Positions 50,137 through 64,000 of a DNA stretch of 64,000 nt are shown piece after piece (position 1 is the stretch's first letter; each line of letters opens with the position of its first letter). Both the position numbers and the translations under genes were made by a program. Under the pieces are notes generated by a model. The model searched no databases. It saw only the letters and a program-made list of their open reading frames with translations, and was not told the DNA's origin. Origin of the DNA: Chitinophagaceae bacterium T5-Br10_B2g13 (lineage in GTDB: Bacteria > Bacteroidota > Rhodothermia > Balneolales > Balneolaceae); NCBI GenBank assembly GCA_001564065.1, contig LKNA01000003.1, forward strand, positions 28,501 through 92,500. The letters run 5' to 3'.

Positions 50137-51354
50137 ATGGAGAAGAGAGATCATCTATTACAGAAGATTTGGCTGTGGAGTTTGGCTTTTTTTCTGCTGG
50201 CTGCAGTGACCGGACTTTTGTATCGCTGGGGATTGATTGGCGGAGATTCTTTCGGGCTGAGGCTGTCTAATATCCGCCATGCCCACTCACACCTGATGTT
50301 TTTTAACTGGGTTACACCTGTGCCGATGGCATTTATTGCAAGATCGCTGTTAAAATCATCACCCGAAGCGTATAAAGCACTGTTCAGGCCAATCTATGCG
50401 GTAATTCTGATTGGGTTCGCCTCGTACCCGTTCTTTCTTCTTTATGGTTATCACCCCGTACAGGTTGGTTCTGCAAATCTTCCATTTTCTGTGATGCTGT
50501 CAGGACTGGTGATGATAGCTTGGTACTGGTTCATGGTTGTTTATCTCAGATATAGAAAAAGTACGGACGACAGCCTCTCCTCTCTGTTTTATGATGGCGC
50601 GCTGGTCATGCTTTTCGTAAGCTCTTTGGGAGCATGGGGAGTTGCCGTTATTCAATTTGGGAATATTGACAGCAATCTGCTCTCCGGTGCCATGACTCAT
50701 TTTTTCCTGACTGTATTTACAGAAGGATGGTGCGTGCTGGCAGCGATTGGGATTTTTTATGAGCTTACCGATAAGCAGACATCACTGCCGTTTGATAAAA
50801 ACTGGCTGATAGCTCCAATAGTGCTGGGAGTTCCACTCATGTTCCCATTCGGTCTTTCTACTGATCTGCTGACCGATCAACTTCTATGGATTGCCAGGGC
50901 GGGATCTTTTCTGGTTTCAATCGGCTTAATCATGAATTTATTTTTCATGATCCGTCTGAATCCATCAGTAATGAAATGGGTGTGGAGTCTGATTCTAATC
51001 TTATTTGGAGTAAAAATTGGTTTGCAAATTGGGGCAGCGGTTTTGCCTTCCCGGATATGGCTTGGCGAGCACGGGTTGAGAGTGCTCTATTTGCACCTTC
51101 TGCTGCTGGGCTTTGTTAGCTCACTCTATTATGCCGGTATCCATACGCTCCATTTCCGTCTGCCCAAGATTGGGTTGTATTTGTTTTTAGGGTCAGTGCT
51201 GTTTTTGATTGTAACACTTGTGTTCATCAGCGGGTTGTGGCCAATTCAGTGGCAGCCTGAAAATGTTTATCTGTGGGTAACAGTTGGCGCTCTACTGCCA
51301 TCAATTGCTATTGCGGCAGAGCTGGGAGTTGTCGGGTACTTTAAGTTTAAATAG
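50137..51354 (+). CDS. Polytopic membrane protein with conserved His-rich helices (heme-copper oxidase I-like segments)
   Basis: RLSNIRHAHSHLMFFNWVTPVPMAF and LRVLYLHLLLLGFVSSLYYAGIH; about 11-12 TM segments. Confidence 0.7.
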   Translation: MEKRDHLLQKIWLWSLAFFLLAAVTGLLYRWGLIGGDSFGLRLSNIRHAHSHLMFFNWVTPVPMAFIARSLLKSSPEAYKALFRPIYAVILIGFASYPFFLLYGYHPVQVGSANLPFSVMLSGLVMIAWYWFMVVYLRYRKSTDDSLSSLFYDGALVMLFVSSLGAWGVAVIQFGNIDSNLLSGAMTHFFLTVFTEGWCVLAAIGIFYELTDKQTSLPFDKNWLIAPIVLGVPLMFPFGLSTDLLTDQLLWIARAGSFLVSIGLIMNLFFMIRLNPSVMKWVWSLILILFGVKIGLQIGAAVLPSRIWLGEHGLRVLYLHLLLLGFVSSLYYAGIHTLHFRLPKIGLYLFLGSVLFLIVTLVFISGLWPIQWQPENVYLWVTVGALLPSIAIAAELGVVGYFKFK

Positions 51355-58509: not shown

Positions 58510-59448
58510 TTAATCAAAAAATCTCATGAGGTAGTGGGGGAGCTGTTCGATCCGTTTTGAACTGAATCTGTTTTCAAAAAAAGGCAGAAGCTTACCGGTA
58601 TTACGCGTTTGCACTTCACCGGCATGAAAAAGCCTGGCCGAATCGGTATGACCTTCTGAAAGCTGATTTAAGTTGATCGATAAAACAGCGTGATTTTCTC
58701 CTTTTATATTCAGGATTGCGACGAGGTTTGTAGTTTCGGCAGGTGTACCGATAAATGAAATAGCCAGTTTTTGTTCGTTATCGATAACTGGGATTCGGTA
58801 ATATTGCTGAAGTCCAAAACTGAAGGGAGAGCTTGAAAAATTGAGATAATTCATCTGCCAGTCGATGGAATCACTCCAGAAGTGAGTGATGGACTTTTGC
58901 AATATCTCTTCGTTTGAGTCGGAAAATTGTCCGGCACAAAAACCTCGCTTGCTCCAGTAGTCATAATCGCGATGAATCTCGGAAATAGGCCGAGTCTCTT
59001 TGAAGGGGAAATCCGGGGTAGTGTTGGGTTTAAATTCTGTAACAGTACCGTCCTCAACCCGATACCAAAAATCGCTTACACCGTTGGTAAGGCAGATATA
59101 TGGAGCTCCAACGGCCTGATTGTAACGGGCGGCTTGTTCGGCCACAGTGCTGTTAAGCCTGACTGATTCTGCTTTGCACTCAATCAGGATTTCTGGTGAC
59201 ATATTTCTGTTGTAGAGAATCAGGTCGGCACGCAGGGCGTTTTTTGCCTGATGAAGCGTAACCGGCGCCTCAAACCCAATACGCGATTTGGGCCAGTCGG
59301 TTTGATAAGCCAGATACTCCACCCATTTAAGACGGACGCGCTCTTCGGGTCGATTTTTAAAACGTTTTTTTAATATCGGATTAAAAAGTACGGATTCGTT
59401 TCCGTTGCAGATGAAACGTGGAAAGTGCCTGTTTGCAATGCTTTTCAT
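58510..59448 (-). CDS. Stand-alone HsdR-N-like (type I restriction enzyme R N-terminal domain) protein
   Basis: ALRADLILYNRNMSPEILIECKAESVRLNSTVAEQAARYNQAVGAPYICLTNG nuclease-like D-ExK core. Confidence 0.82.
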   Translation of the reverse strand: MKSIANRHFPRFICNGNESVLFNPILKKRFKNRPEERVRLKWVEYLAYQTDWPKSRIGFEAPVTLHQAKNALRADLILYNRNMSPEILIECKAESVRLNSTVAEQAARYNQAVGAPYICLTNGVSDFWYRVEDGTVTEFKPNTTPDFPFKETRPISEIHRDYDYWSKRGFCAGQFSDSNEEILQKSITHFWSDSIDWQMNYLNFSSSPFSFGLQQYYRIPVIDNEQKLAISFIGTPAETTNLVAILNIKGENHAVLSINLNQLSEGHTDSARLFHAGEVQTRNTGKLLPFFENRFSSKRIEQLPHYLMRFFD

Positions 59449-59558
59449 AGATAAAAAAATACGAAAGTTTACACGGCATTAAAGTGGTTTTAAAACAGTT
59501 TTTCAAAACTCTTAAAAAAGATTTGGAATTAATTTGAGATTACCGCAAGTTAGGATTC

Positions 59559-59621
59559 ATGAAATTTAACGCACACACAACAACTCTTTCTCTTCGCCGT
59601 CGCCGCCCTTGGGGCGTGTGA
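59559..59621 (+). CDS. Putative arginine leader peptide MKFNAHTTTLSLRRRRPWGV
   Basis: 20 codons including CGC CGT CGC CGC, followed by an antiterminator/terminator and argF. Confidence 0.75.
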   Translation: MKFNAHTTTLSLRRRRPWGV

Positions 59622-59694
59622 TAGCAGTGTGTGTAGTGTAAACTACCAGGATTTATCACAAGCCCCGACAATTTAATTTGTCGGGGCTTTTTTT
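59611..59694 (+). promoter_or_regulatory. Transcription attenuator: antiterminator GGGGCGTGTGATA (59611-59623) / TATCACAAGCCCC (59654-59666) versus terminator
   Basis: 12 of 13 positions pair, and the 3' arm overlaps the 5' arm of the terminator stem. Confidence 0.72.
59660..59694 (+). terminator. Intrinsic terminator in the arg leader
   Basis: Perfect 12-bp stem AAGCCCCGACAA / TTGTCGGGGCTT followed by a T tract. Confidence 0.92.
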
Positions 59695-59794: not shown

Positions 59795-60766
59795 ATGAAT
59801 CATCTGTTAACCATTGGCGACCTCGAAGCCGATCAAATTCAATCCATACTCGACCTCAGCGCAGAGCTTGAGAAAAACCCAAAGTCTGTACTTACCGGGA
59901 AAAACATCGCTTTTGTTTTTGAGAAACCATCACTCAGAACCAAGGTGGGAACCGAAGTGGCGATCAATCACCTGAATGGAAATGTCATCCCCATTGATGC
60001 CGATCTAATCTTTTCCAGCGGAAAGGCGGTGCCCTTTACCAGCCGTGAATCCCTGAAAGATGCCATGATGAACGTTTCACAATGGTGTGACGCGGTTTTT
60101 GCCCGGGTCTATTCGCACAACACGCTGAAAAAAATGGCGGATTATGGAGAAATACCCGTTGTGAATGCCTTGTGCGATCAGCACCATCCTATGCAGGCAC
60201 TGGCCGATCTTTACACGATGCAGCAGAAATTCGGTAAAGATCAAAAACTGACAATTACCTACGTGGGTGACGCTAATAACGTCGCTTTTTCACTGATTGA
60301 AATCGGGCTGAAGTTGGGCCATACCCTGAAGTTTTCAGGTCCCAAGGAGTACTCCTGGAAAGAGGAGCAGCTCGGATACTTTTCGCTCCTTGCTGTTGAA
60401 CACGGCGGCACATTCATCCAAACATCTGATCCATTTGAAGCGGTTTATGAAACGGATTTGGTCTATGCCGATACCTTTATCTCAATGGGTGAAGAACACC
60501 TTTACGATGAAAAGATCAGGCACTTCGAACCTTACCAGGTGAATGAAAAGCTCTTTTCACAGGCTAAAAGCAGCGCCGGTTTTTTGCACTGCCTGCCCGC
60601 CCACCGGGGTGTGGAAGTCACCGACGAAGTGATCGACCATAAAAACTCCTGGGTATATCAGCAGGCCAAAAACCGGATGATTGTATCGAAGGGTGTTTTT
60701 GCAACACTGCTTACGGGTGTAAAAACGGAAATACAAACAAATGGAGCAGTAAAAGTCCCCTCTTGA
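59795..60766 (+). CDS. argF: Ornithine carbamoyltransferase-family protein
   Basis: FEKPSLRTKVGTEVA, CDQHHPMQALADLYT, HCLPAHRGVEVTDEVID. Confidence 0.88.
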   Translation: MNHLLTIGDLEADQIQSILDLSAELEKNPKSVLTGKNIAFVFEKPSLRTKVGTEVAINHLNGNVIPIDADLIFSSGKAVPFTSRESLKDAMMNVSQWCDAVFARVYSHNTLKKMADYGEIPVVNALCDQHHPMQALADLYTMQQKFGKDQKLTITYVGDANNVAFSLIEIGLKLGHTLKFSGPKEYSWKEEQLGYFSLLAVEHGGTFIQTSDPFEAVYETDLVYADTFISMGEEHLYDEKIRHFEPYQVNEKLFSQAKSSAGFLHCLPAHRGVEVTDEVIDHKNSWVYQQAKNRMIVSKGVFATLLTGVKTEIQTNGAVKVPS

Positions 60767-60970: not shown

Positions 60971-61010
60971 TCCCTCCTCTCTACCTGTAGAGAGGGGACA
61001 GGGGGTGAGT
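60971..61010. repeat. Half-element CCTCTCTAC-CT-GTAGAGAGG + GGGGGTGAG upstream of argG
   Basis: TCCCTCCTCTCTACCTGTAGAGAGGGGACAGGGGGTGAGT. Confidence 0.7.
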
Positions 61011-61019
61011 CCAAACGCC

Positions 61020-62303
61020 ATGAAAAATCAAACCACATACAAAAAAGTAGCCTCACACGAAGCCGAAAAAGGAACCTTTAATACATGCCTGCTGCTCTAC
61101 TCGGGCGGGCTGGACACCAGCATGATGCTAAAGTGGATCCAGGAGGAGTATGAGTGCGATGTTATCGCAATGACCGTAAACATTGGCCAGACGGCTGATA
61201 ATCTTGACGCTATCAAACAGAAAGCGCTGAATCTCGGCGCGAAGGATGCCATCGTTTATGACGCGAAGGAGGAATTCGCAGAGCTTTGCGCCGAAGCGGT
61301 AAAAGCCAACGCCGATTACCAGGGCGGGTATGCACTCGGGTGTCCACTGGGCAGGGTGATGATCTCACAGCTGGCCGTGCAGTTTGCCGCCGAATTCGGT
61401 TGTGAGGTGATAGCCCATGGCTGCACCGGTAAGGGAAACGACCAGGTGCGGTTCGAAAGCTACATCACCACGCTGAACCCTGACCTGAAAATCATTGCCC
61501 CTGTTCGGGAGTGGAGCATGGGCCGGGACGAACAGATTGCCTACGCCATCGAAAACGGAATTCCGGTCGATCAGACACAAAAGAGCCCCTATTCGTACGA
61601 CGAAAACATGTGGGCCAACACCGGAGAAGGCGGAGAGATCGAAAACCCCGAATTGATTCCGCCGCTTGAGAACATTCTGAAATGGGCCAACACTCCGCAA
61701 AACGCGCCCGATAAGGAAGAGTTGGTGAAGATCGGATTTGAGAAAGGTGAGCCGGTTTCGCTGAATGGAATCAGTTATGATAAAAAAGACCTGATTCTGT
61801 TGCTGAACGATATCGGCGGAAAACACGCGGTTGGTGTGTTTCACCTAATCGAAGACCGTGTAGTGGGGCTGAAGGTGAGGGGTGTGTACGAAAACCCAGC
61901 GGCCACCATTCTGATACAGGCGCACAAAAACCTGGAACAGTTGGTTTCCACCCGGGAAGAGAACGAGCTTAAAAACTTTATGGACCAGAAGTGGGCCTAC
62001 CTCATTTACGGAGCCAAGTATTTCGAGCCGGTTATGGATAACATCCGGGCCTTCATCAACGAACAGAACAAAAAGGTGACCGGCGAAGTGACCCTGAAAC
62101 TTTACAAGGGGAACTATGACGTGGTGGCACTCTCCTCACCCTACTCGCTGTTCGATGAAAACCTTGCTACATTCAACAAGTCAGCTGCCTTTAACCAGAA
62201 CGCCTCGGCGGGATTCATCGAGCTGTGGAATCTGCCTCAGAAAACGGCGTACCAACTGAAGAAGGAGGTCGTGAAAAGTACAGCGGGCAGCTTGGCTGAT
62301 TAG
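61020..62303 (+). CDS. argG: Argininosuccinate synthase
   Basis: LLLYSGGLDTSMMLKWIQEEY, AHGCTGKGNDQVRFE, MWANTGEGGEIENP; ORF track starts at GTG 61005, ATG at 61020 preferred. Confidence 0.95.
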   Translation: MKNQTTYKKVASHEAEKGTFNTCLLLYSGGLDTSMMLKWIQEEYECDVIAMTVNIGQTADNLDAIKQKALNLGAKDAIVYDAKEEFAELCAEAVKANADYQGGYALGCPLGRVMISQLAVQFAAEFGCEVIAHGCTGKGNDQVRFESYITTLNPDLKIIAPVREWSMGRDEQIAYAIENGIPVDQTQKSPYSYDENMWANTGEGGEIENPELIPPLENILKWANTPQNAPDKEELVKIGFEKGEPVSLNGISYDKKDLILLLNDIGGKHAVGVFHLIEDRVVGLKVRGVYENPAATILIQAHKNLEQLVSTREENELKNFMDQKWAYLIYGAKYFEPVMDNIRAFINEQNKKVTGEVTLKLYKGNYDVVALSSPYSLFDENLATFNKSAAFNQNASAGFIELWNLPQKTAYQLKKEVVKSTAGSLAD

Positions 62304-62546: not shown

Positions 62547-63830
62547 ATGTCTAAACTCTGGCAAAAATCATCAACTGATACCCAATCCGATATCGCGAAA
62601 AAGGTGGAGGCGTTTACGGTTGGCAACGACTATAACCTGGACCAGGTTCTGGTTCCCTATGATGTAATGGGATCAAAAGTGCACGTCAAAGCGCTTCATA
62701 AAGCCGGTATTCTGAATGAAAAGGAGCTGGAGAAGTTGCTTGCCGGGCTGGATGAGGTACTGTCCGTCTGGGAAAAAGGGGAGTTTGAAATTACCGTCCA
62801 GGATGAGGATATGCACACGGCAATTGAGAATTTTCTGATAGAAAAACTGGGTGATCTCGGTAAAAAAATTCATACCGGGCGGTCGCGAAATGACCAGGTG
62901 TTGACGGCGATGAGGCTCTATGAAAAGGAGGCGCTGGAAAAGATCCTCACTGAAGTCAGGGCTTGCGCGGAGTTGCTTATCGACATAGGCGAGAAACACG
63001 AAAAGGTGCCCATGCCGGGATATACACACACCCGCAAGGCGATGCTCAGTAGCGTGGGGCTCTGGGCCGGTGGTTATGCGGAGATGATAATCATGCAGCT
63101 GGAAGCTGCGTCCGGGATCAAAAGCCTCATCAATCGGTCTCCACTGGGTACCGCGGCCGGTTTTGGCACTACGTTTGATATCGACAGGGAATTTGAAGCC
63201 GAGGAGCTTGGCTTTGCCGTGCCAATTGTCTGCTCTACAACAGCCCAGCTTTCACGCGGATGGGTGGAGTTACAGATGGTTCAATATCTGTCAGGAATTA
63301 CCGCAATCATGAATCGATTTGCCGCAGATGTGATCCAGTTTAGCAGTGAAGCTTATCAATTTTTTGACCTTGATGAGGTGGTTTGTACCGGTTCGTCGAT
63401 CATGCCGCAGAAAAAAAATCCGGATGTGGCAGAACTTTTGCGGGCTGGGCATTCCGAGATTGTGGGAGCGGCATCAACCCTGCAAATGCTGACTGCCAAT
63501 CTCGGCAGCGGATATCACCGGGATCTCCAGCTTACCAAAGAGCCGGTGATTCGAGCTGTAGAAAAAACGATGAACTTATTAAACGTCTCACAAATCCTGA
63601 TATCCGGAATTTCTATTGATCAGAAAAAGTTGGAAGCGGCATGCACATCTGAACTGTTTGCTGCTGAGGCTGCAAACCAACTGGTAGTGGAGAAAGGTGT
63701 CGCTTTTAGGGAAGCATATCGTGTTGTTGCGGGTGAGTCATCAATCAGTAAAGGTTGGTCTGCTAATGAGGTGATAAAAAAGTACACCCACCTGGGATCT
63801 CCGGGCAATCCCGGATTAAGTCGTTTTTGA
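62547..63830 (+). CDS. argH: Argininosuccinate lyase
   Basis: HTGRSRNDQVLTAMRLY, PGYTHTRKAMLSSVGLWAGG, GSSIMPQKKNPDVAELLRA. Confidence 0.95.
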   Translation: MSKLWQKSSTDTQSDIAKKVEAFTVGNDYNLDQVLVPYDVMGSKVHVKALHKAGILNEKELEKLLAGLDEVLSVWEKGEFEITVQDEDMHTAIENFLIEKLGDLGKKIHTGRSRNDQVLTAMRLYEKEALEKILTEVRACAELLIDIGEKHEKVPMPGYTHTRKAMLSSVGLWAGGYAEMIIMQLEAASGIKSLINRSPLGTAAGFGTTFDIDREFEAEELGFAVPIVCSTTAQLSRGWVELQMVQYLSGITAIMNRFAADVIQFSSEAYQFFDLDEVVCTGSSIMPQKKNPDVAELLRAGHSEIVGAASTLQMLTANLGSGYHRDLQLTKEPVIRAVEKTMNLLNVSQILISGISIDQKKLEAACTSELFAAEAANQLVVEKGVAFREAYRVVAGESSISKGWSANEVIKKYTHLGSPGNPGLSRF

Positions 63831-64000
63831 GATAGAATGGATAAAGATGGAGAATGAAGGTTGAATTGCGCCATGACAAAAAATACTTAAAGGAAAATGC
63901 GTATAAAGAATAAATATATGTAAAAATTCGCCTCAAAAGCGCTTCCAAAAGGATATAATGATTGATTTTAGGGTAAATATGTGCTATCTGTAGAGACGAA

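Follow-up and report, generated by a model that had tools for sequence, protein, structure and literature searches.

A probable arginine-sensing transcription attenuator upstream of argFGH in Rhodohalobacter, and Arg-codon leaders in the class Rhodothermia

The element at 59559-59694 of the window, by which we mean the whole stretch of 64,000 nucleotides that was analysed, very likely regulates argFGH as a transcription attenuator, with the ribosome reading out how far Arg-tRNA is charged; the case was made without data on transcripts, ribosome profiling or expression. This reading is based on a leader and terminator present in 36 of 36 testable genomes, the specificity for Arg, synonymous codon changes, co-variation of the pairing arms and footprint folding. 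It is also based on the absence of ArgR from the order and on the function of the controlled genes, which make arginine. The host was a Rhodohalobacter of the family Balneolaceae, and a named relative within its genus group was Rhodohalobacter sulfatireducens WB101. The host bacterium is salt-loving.

The argF-argG-argH order downstream of the leader, claimed in a preliminary description made from the sequence alone, was confirmed with NCBIfam models (Table 1). The end of the terminator T-run (59694) and the argF start were separated by 101 nt. The gene 5' of the leader (58510-59448) was divergent, on the opposite strand, so the leader probably opens a transcription unit. The contig of the window ended at 92,500, which is 170 nt past argH (63830-64000), and genes beyond that point were out of view. 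In the relative G011, a GNAT acetyltransferase gene was located between argG and argH (L086:4137-4628).

The preliminary description had also proposed a leader ORF with four Arg codons, a perfect 12-bp terminator with a U tract, a pairing at 12 of 13 positions between 59611-59623 and 59654-59666, an outer pairing, and a CGCCC/GGGCG pause-type hairpin. All of these were correct to the base. By direct reading, the ORF began with ATG at 59559, comprised 20 codons and encoded MKFNAHTTTLSLRRRRPWGV. Its stop codon TGA (59619-59621) was located inside GGGGCGTGTGATA, which forms the antiterminator with TATCACAAGCCCC. The terminator consisted of AAGCCCCGACAA (59660-59671) and TTGTCGGGGCTT (59678-59689) with a 6-nt loop, and its T-run extended to 59694. 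The pause-type hairpin was formed by 59604-59608 and 59612-59616, and the outer helix was CACACA/GTGTGT.

The element is not a chance pattern. The leader fold had a z of -5.6 against shuffled sequences, and a single copy of the Arg-codon string was present in 64 kb, where 0 were expected. In the genes of the window, CGC made up only 13% of the Arg codons. The two strands of the window contained 1152 short ATG ORFs, of which only this leader combined an Arg run with a strong terminator behind it. The TTTG found ~36 nt 5' of the leader ATG was inferred to be a -33 promoter element, a role that is untested. If it is, the 5' UTR would be very short or absent, and the mRNA leaderless or nearly so. 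An A-tract and TTTG were conserved in 59515-59559 and in the same stretch of the relatives.

Table 1. Features of the putative attenuator and its operon in the window, and loci of related leaders
Feature	Position	Strand	Evidence or remark
TTTG, inferred -33 promoter element	59522..59525	+	TTTG/TTG similarly placed in nearly all genus members
Leader peptide ORF MKFNAHTTTLSLRRRRPWGV	59559..59621	+	~20-codon length and LRRRRP(x)G(V/A) ending kept in genus
Arm A, pairs with 59627-59634 without ribosome	59571..59578	+	Folding
Four Arg control codons CGC CGT CGC CGC	59595..59606	+	Direct reading; synonymous variation in relatives
Arm B (CGCCC), pause/anti-antiterminator hairpin with 59612-59616	59604..59608	+	100% of cells paired in genus
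Arm C, antiterminator 5' arm, overlaps leader stop	59611..59623	+	Pairing, cross-lineage co-variation, folding
Arm D, partner of arm A	59627..59634	+	Folding
Small hairpin E (GTAGT...ACTAC), apical part of antiterminator	59633..59647	+	Co-varying UA/UG/CG pair, genus alignment columns 79-92
Arm F, antiterminator 3' arm, overlaps terminator 5' arm	59654..59666	+	Pairing, cross-lineage co-variation, folding
Intrinsic terminator (59660-59671/59678-59689) and T-run	59660..59694	+	Pairing kept despite sequence change across genus
argF, ornithine carbamoyltransferase	59795..60766	+	NCBIfam TIGR00658, 299 bits
argG, argininosuccinate synthase	61005..62303	+	NCBIfam TIGR00032, 455 bits
argH, argininosuccinate lyase	62547..63830	+	NCBIfam TIGR00838, 321 bits
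G018 leader	L088 (G018:C17:45000-60000), near contig 50651-50789		
argG-type leader loci	L134, L135, L137-L149, L159, L191-L219		Upstream of argG

An argF of the window's type was found in 39 of 135 Balneolales genomes. Three of them (G016, G009, and G114) were left out as untestable because the contig ends were too near argF. In all 36 others, which represented about ten genera and three Balneolales families, an Arg-run leader and a terminator were located 5' of argF, and this conservation is shown. G116 carried the weakest leader, with a run of only RR...R; in G085 the leader and argF were on two separate contigs, and the leader of G090 started with GTG. The peptides of the genus were 19-21 codons long and ended in (L)RRRRP(L/M/W/S)G(V/A), while their N-terminal half drifted. 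Other leaders ended in SLRRRRRSGV (g27), SSLRNRRRPC (G049), NERRRRPKGRNT (G080), LSIRRRRPRA (G030), VVLRRRCRTG (G027 and G033), and LVLRRRRP (G032).

Arg specificity is likewise shown. When runs of each of the 20 residues were scanned in the same argF windows, Arg was found in 34 of 36 (strict) and any other residue in at most 4 of 36. The Arg codons varied synonymously among relatives (CGC, CGT, and CGA, with CGG x4 in G030 and G039), and the L004 leader contained one whole additional codon with the frame kept. The terminator was present in all testable argF relatives; in the genus alignment its pairing was kept while the sequence changed, and it co-varied, as did the small post-stop hairpin. 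Had relatives not preserved the Arg run or the alternative pairing, the proposal would have been refuted; both were preserved, and the element passed this test. Weak covariance-model matches (E > 1e-6) that were not before argF were mostly generic terminators or unrelated sequences (L081, G023, and G066 were inspected) and were ignored.

In the genus-only alignment the antiterminator was conserved and nearly invariant, with little covariation, and therefore partner shuffling was applied across 13 lineages. Co-variation of the arms is shown at this level. Pairs of arms that changed together were GGGCGTGTGATA/TATCACAAGCCC in Rhodohalobacter, GGCGTGTGA/TCACAACGCC in g27, CGGGCAATG/CATTGCCCG in G049, GGGCGAAATACTT/AAGTATTCGCCC in G080, and CGGGTGT/ACACCCG in G116. 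The mean energy of the cognate duplexes was -18.0 kcal/mol vs. -12.7 ± 0.9 (sd) for shuffled partners, and none of 100,000 shuffles was as good. With stricter (short) arms the values were -12.8 vs. -9.3 (0 of 100,000), and 2 of 100,000 shuffles were as good when three lineages near Rhodohalobacter were excluded. The relatedness among lineages was not fully corrected. Some lineages had weak antiterminators (G027, G033, and G036, with LRRRCRTG); that of G036 reached -13.4, and -4.3 when strict arms were used.

For footprint folding, the nascent RNA was folded as far as arm F, with an assumed ribosome mask that covered 18 nt upstream of the A site and 12 nt starting at it. In the window, the expected number of C:F pairs in the absence of a ribosome was 3.7, A:D and B:C being the favored pairings. 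It was 12.9 with the A site at the first or second Arg codon, 10.5 at the third, 7.2 at the fourth, and 0.0 at the stop. Within this model and its assumed footprint, the three states are shown to be thermodynamically feasible. The stall/finish logic of the preliminary description was thus supported in silico. G049 and g27 behaved like the window; in G032 and G116 the folding model did not favor termination without a ribosome.

In the proposed mechanism, RNA polymerase would transcribe the short ORF carrying the four Arg codons. When arginine is plentiful, the ribosome would get to the UGA within arm C and mask this arm, so that the terminator folds and ends transcription short of argF. When arginine is scarce, a ribosome stalled at the Arg codons would cover arms A and B and leave C free; C would then pair with F, sequester the 5' arm of the terminator, and allow argFGH to be transcribed. 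Without any ribosome, A:D and B:C would hold arm C, and termination would be the default. Translation of the leader, termination in vivo and arginine-responsive readthrough are inferred, with no experiment behind them.

The element met the features of trp/his-type attenuation: a run of codons for the end product in a short leader ORF (RRRR; Arg in 34 of 36 argF windows), an intrinsic terminator separating this ORF from the first structural gene, and an antiterminator that uses the 5' arm of the terminator and is mutually exclusive with it (12 of 13 pairs, co-variation over 13 lineages). The release of the antiterminator by a stall (12.9 pairs) and its masking at the stop (0.0) were met only in silico, with an assumed footprint. 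The preliminary description had proposed this type of attenuation for arginine, which is supported by the conservation, the Arg specificity and the co-varying arms, the response to arginine in vivo being inferred.

Three other explanations were considered. A basic RRRR-Pro peptide might stall the ribosome as a nascent chain, perhaps with free arginine as its ligand, the fungal arginine attenuator peptide being the precedent, and set the same RNA switch afterward. The basic run is indeed followed by Pro in most members of the genus. However, the flanking residues were not conserved across lineages (SGV, RCRTG, NRRRPC, FRRRLERDLCKDCV, and VRPIRPVRRPRRPRGGGTG), and Cys, Pro, Ile or Leu broke up the runs, so that only the richness in Arg and the pairing persisted. 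Moreover, if high arginine arrested the ribosome as a ligand, arginine would induce the operon, opposite in sign to what biosynthetic genes in this layout require. Nascent-chain arrest is therefore very unlikely.

It is also conceivable that the conserved CGCCGTCGCCGCCC is kept only as RNA, as a hairpin or a protein-binding site, with an incidental Arg frame. The nucleotides of the Arg run were identical within Rhodohalobacter, where the CGCCC/GGGCG pairing was invariant. However, Arg runs persisted elsewhere although the nucleotides changed (CGG x4, AGG, and CGA-rich runs in other orders), the indel in L004 was exactly one codon, and Arg was the sole enriched residue of 20; an RNA-only element is all but ruled out. 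Even less room is left for a constitutive terminator of an upstream transcript, in which the ORF would have no regulatory role. The strong, perfect hairpin and T-run would fit it, but the divergent neighbor (58510-59448) left no obvious same-strand upstream transcript that needed an end, and an antiterminator in co-variation with the terminator arm would serve no purpose. Arginine attenuation remained the preferred reading.

The preliminary description had regarded the lineage as one that is usually regulated by ArgR. This remark was wrong, because ArgR (PF01316) was found in 0 of 135 Balneolales genomes by profile search (E up to 0.001). The same search was positive in 9 of 14 control genomes. 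Over the class, 2 of 252 genomes exceeded the cut-off, one of them via repeated sequence. The class Rhodothermia is thus essentially without ArgR and apparently uses Arg-codon attenuators instead, for which there is no experiment.

Both in further Balneolales families and in orders of the class other than Balneolales, argG was not preceded by an argF of the window's type. An Arg-run leader and a terminator were located ~150-450 nt 5' of argG in those argG-first operons, with peptides such as MKLNMTYNLCNDSRRRRFRRRLERDLCKDCV and MLPQTFHMMQPVRPIRPVRRPRRPRGGGTGASCPVAVW. The strict scan detected this leader in 11 of 12 windows of the order and in 23 of 34 of the other orders, which became 28 of 34 with five relaxed matches. 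Shuffled upstream windows matched in 10 of 580 cases vs. 19 of 29 real ones (class); a lone match at high GC is therefore no proof, whereas the whole set is. The argG-type leader was found in none of eight Balneola-type operons (the genus name is inferred) and in none of 30 Bacteroidia (a name inferred from the position outside the window's class). In genera g11, g13, and g15 (L150, L152-L157, and L160), there was neither an Arg leader 5' of argG nor ArgR, and their arginine control is unexplained.

The geometry of the argG-type leader was its own. No convincing pairing was found via the outer terminator arm; instead, the 3' part of the leader paired with the loop-proximal side of the 5' arm, e.g., TGTGAAGATT/AATCTTCGCA. 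Shuffled partners matched the cognate pairing in 0 of 20,000 trials in the class and 32 of 20,000 in the order. Since the peptides, the RNA and the geometry of the two types are dissimilar, we consider it likely, though not shown, that the argF-type and argG-type leaders have separate origins.

The element resembles the his, trp, leu, thr, and phe leader attenuators in its ORF of cognate codons, pause hairpin, antiterminator, intrinsic terminator and inferred logic. It differs in the sensing of arginine, the unrelated sequence, the occurrence in Rhodothermia and the two dissimilar architectures. No Rfam leader family (His, Leu, Trp, Thr, or Phe) matched at the gathering score, and the sole Rfam match of the window was a tRNA; in ten loci no leader match was found even at E up to 1. 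No T-box was matched by Rfam upstream of the operon in the window or in the ten loci. In Salmonella, the speF leader orf34 likewise contains consecutive Arg codons, two in number, and pausing at low arginine alters the RNA structure and raises expression (PMC6386406). However, it controls ornithine decarboxylase via Rho and RNase G, without an intrinsic terminator (PMC6386406). By inspection, the orf34 (DUF2618) core HIRRT...HIMM before ornithine decarboxylase was absent here, and the peptides and downstream genes differed. The carAB leader of Pseudomonas aeruginosa also encodes a peptide, with suspected attenuation of a gene feeding arginine synthesis, but the possible attenuation is ascribed to pyrimidines, the arginine control is placed at transcription, and no Arg-run switch was described (PMC4997734). 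The fungal arginine attenuator peptide (AAP, arg-2/CPA1) is a uORF on which translation is arrested at high arginine. It shares the uORF and arginine, but it is eukaryotic, depends on a specific nascent peptide and has no terminator.

Arginine operons of E. coli and many bacteria are controlled by ArgR and ARG boxes, that is, by a DNA-binding protein, and attenuation is used in none of those of E. coli (PMC6245113). In Actinobacteria, a comparative study detected no RNA element ahead of the arginine operons, and T-boxes were the only ones it listed for arginine elsewhere (PMC1262725). A Flavobacterium transcriptome (supplement aside) described leader-peptide attenuation before amino-acid operons, arginine not being named (PMC9723704). 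The open literature searched, subscription journals excluded, contained no report of arginine control by a leader switch with an intrinsic terminator. The mechanism is classical; as far as that literature can tell, its specificity for arginine, its two architectures and its use throughout the class seem undescribed. With respect to attenuation, arginine has until now been an exception among amino acids. If true, our reading would give a simple and testable account of arginine control in Rhodothermia, back the repeated origin of leader-peptide switches, and make a natural arginine sensor part available.

Genome G018, a Rhodohalobacter without argF or argG, retained the leader MKFYGNILLMHTRRRRCLLGM (covariance model E = 2.9e-15) at the argFGH locus of its relatives. 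Next to the locus were the aminopeptidase and the HSDR_N gene that neighbor it in the window. Its B:C hairpin displayed compensated changes (TGCC/GGCA), and the antiterminator GGGCATGTGA/TCACAAGCCC and the terminator were intact. The next genes 3' of it encoded a TonB-plug SusC-like receptor and SusD. The leader may be a mere remnant, and its action on uptake is unresolved; if the attenuator reading is true, G018 would be a possible natural swap, with a biosynthetic sensor placed in front of a transporter. A bolder joint reading would be that class-wide Arg attenuators originated on two unrelated types of operon, each with its own pairing geometry, and that a portable sensor made SusC/SusD import in G018 arginine-responsive; we lean slightly against it. 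argF and argG were not found in four Rhodohalobacter genomes (G018, G023, G024, and G013), the absence being weaker in G024, which was 84% complete. These four are likely arginine auxotrophs within a mostly prototrophic genus.

An ORF, MLNTQTTNVRRRRSSSER, was observed in L049, filed as Candidatus Gracilibacteria, ~650 nt upstream of an argF that was 58% identical to that of the window. This contig was probably mis-binned or transferred.
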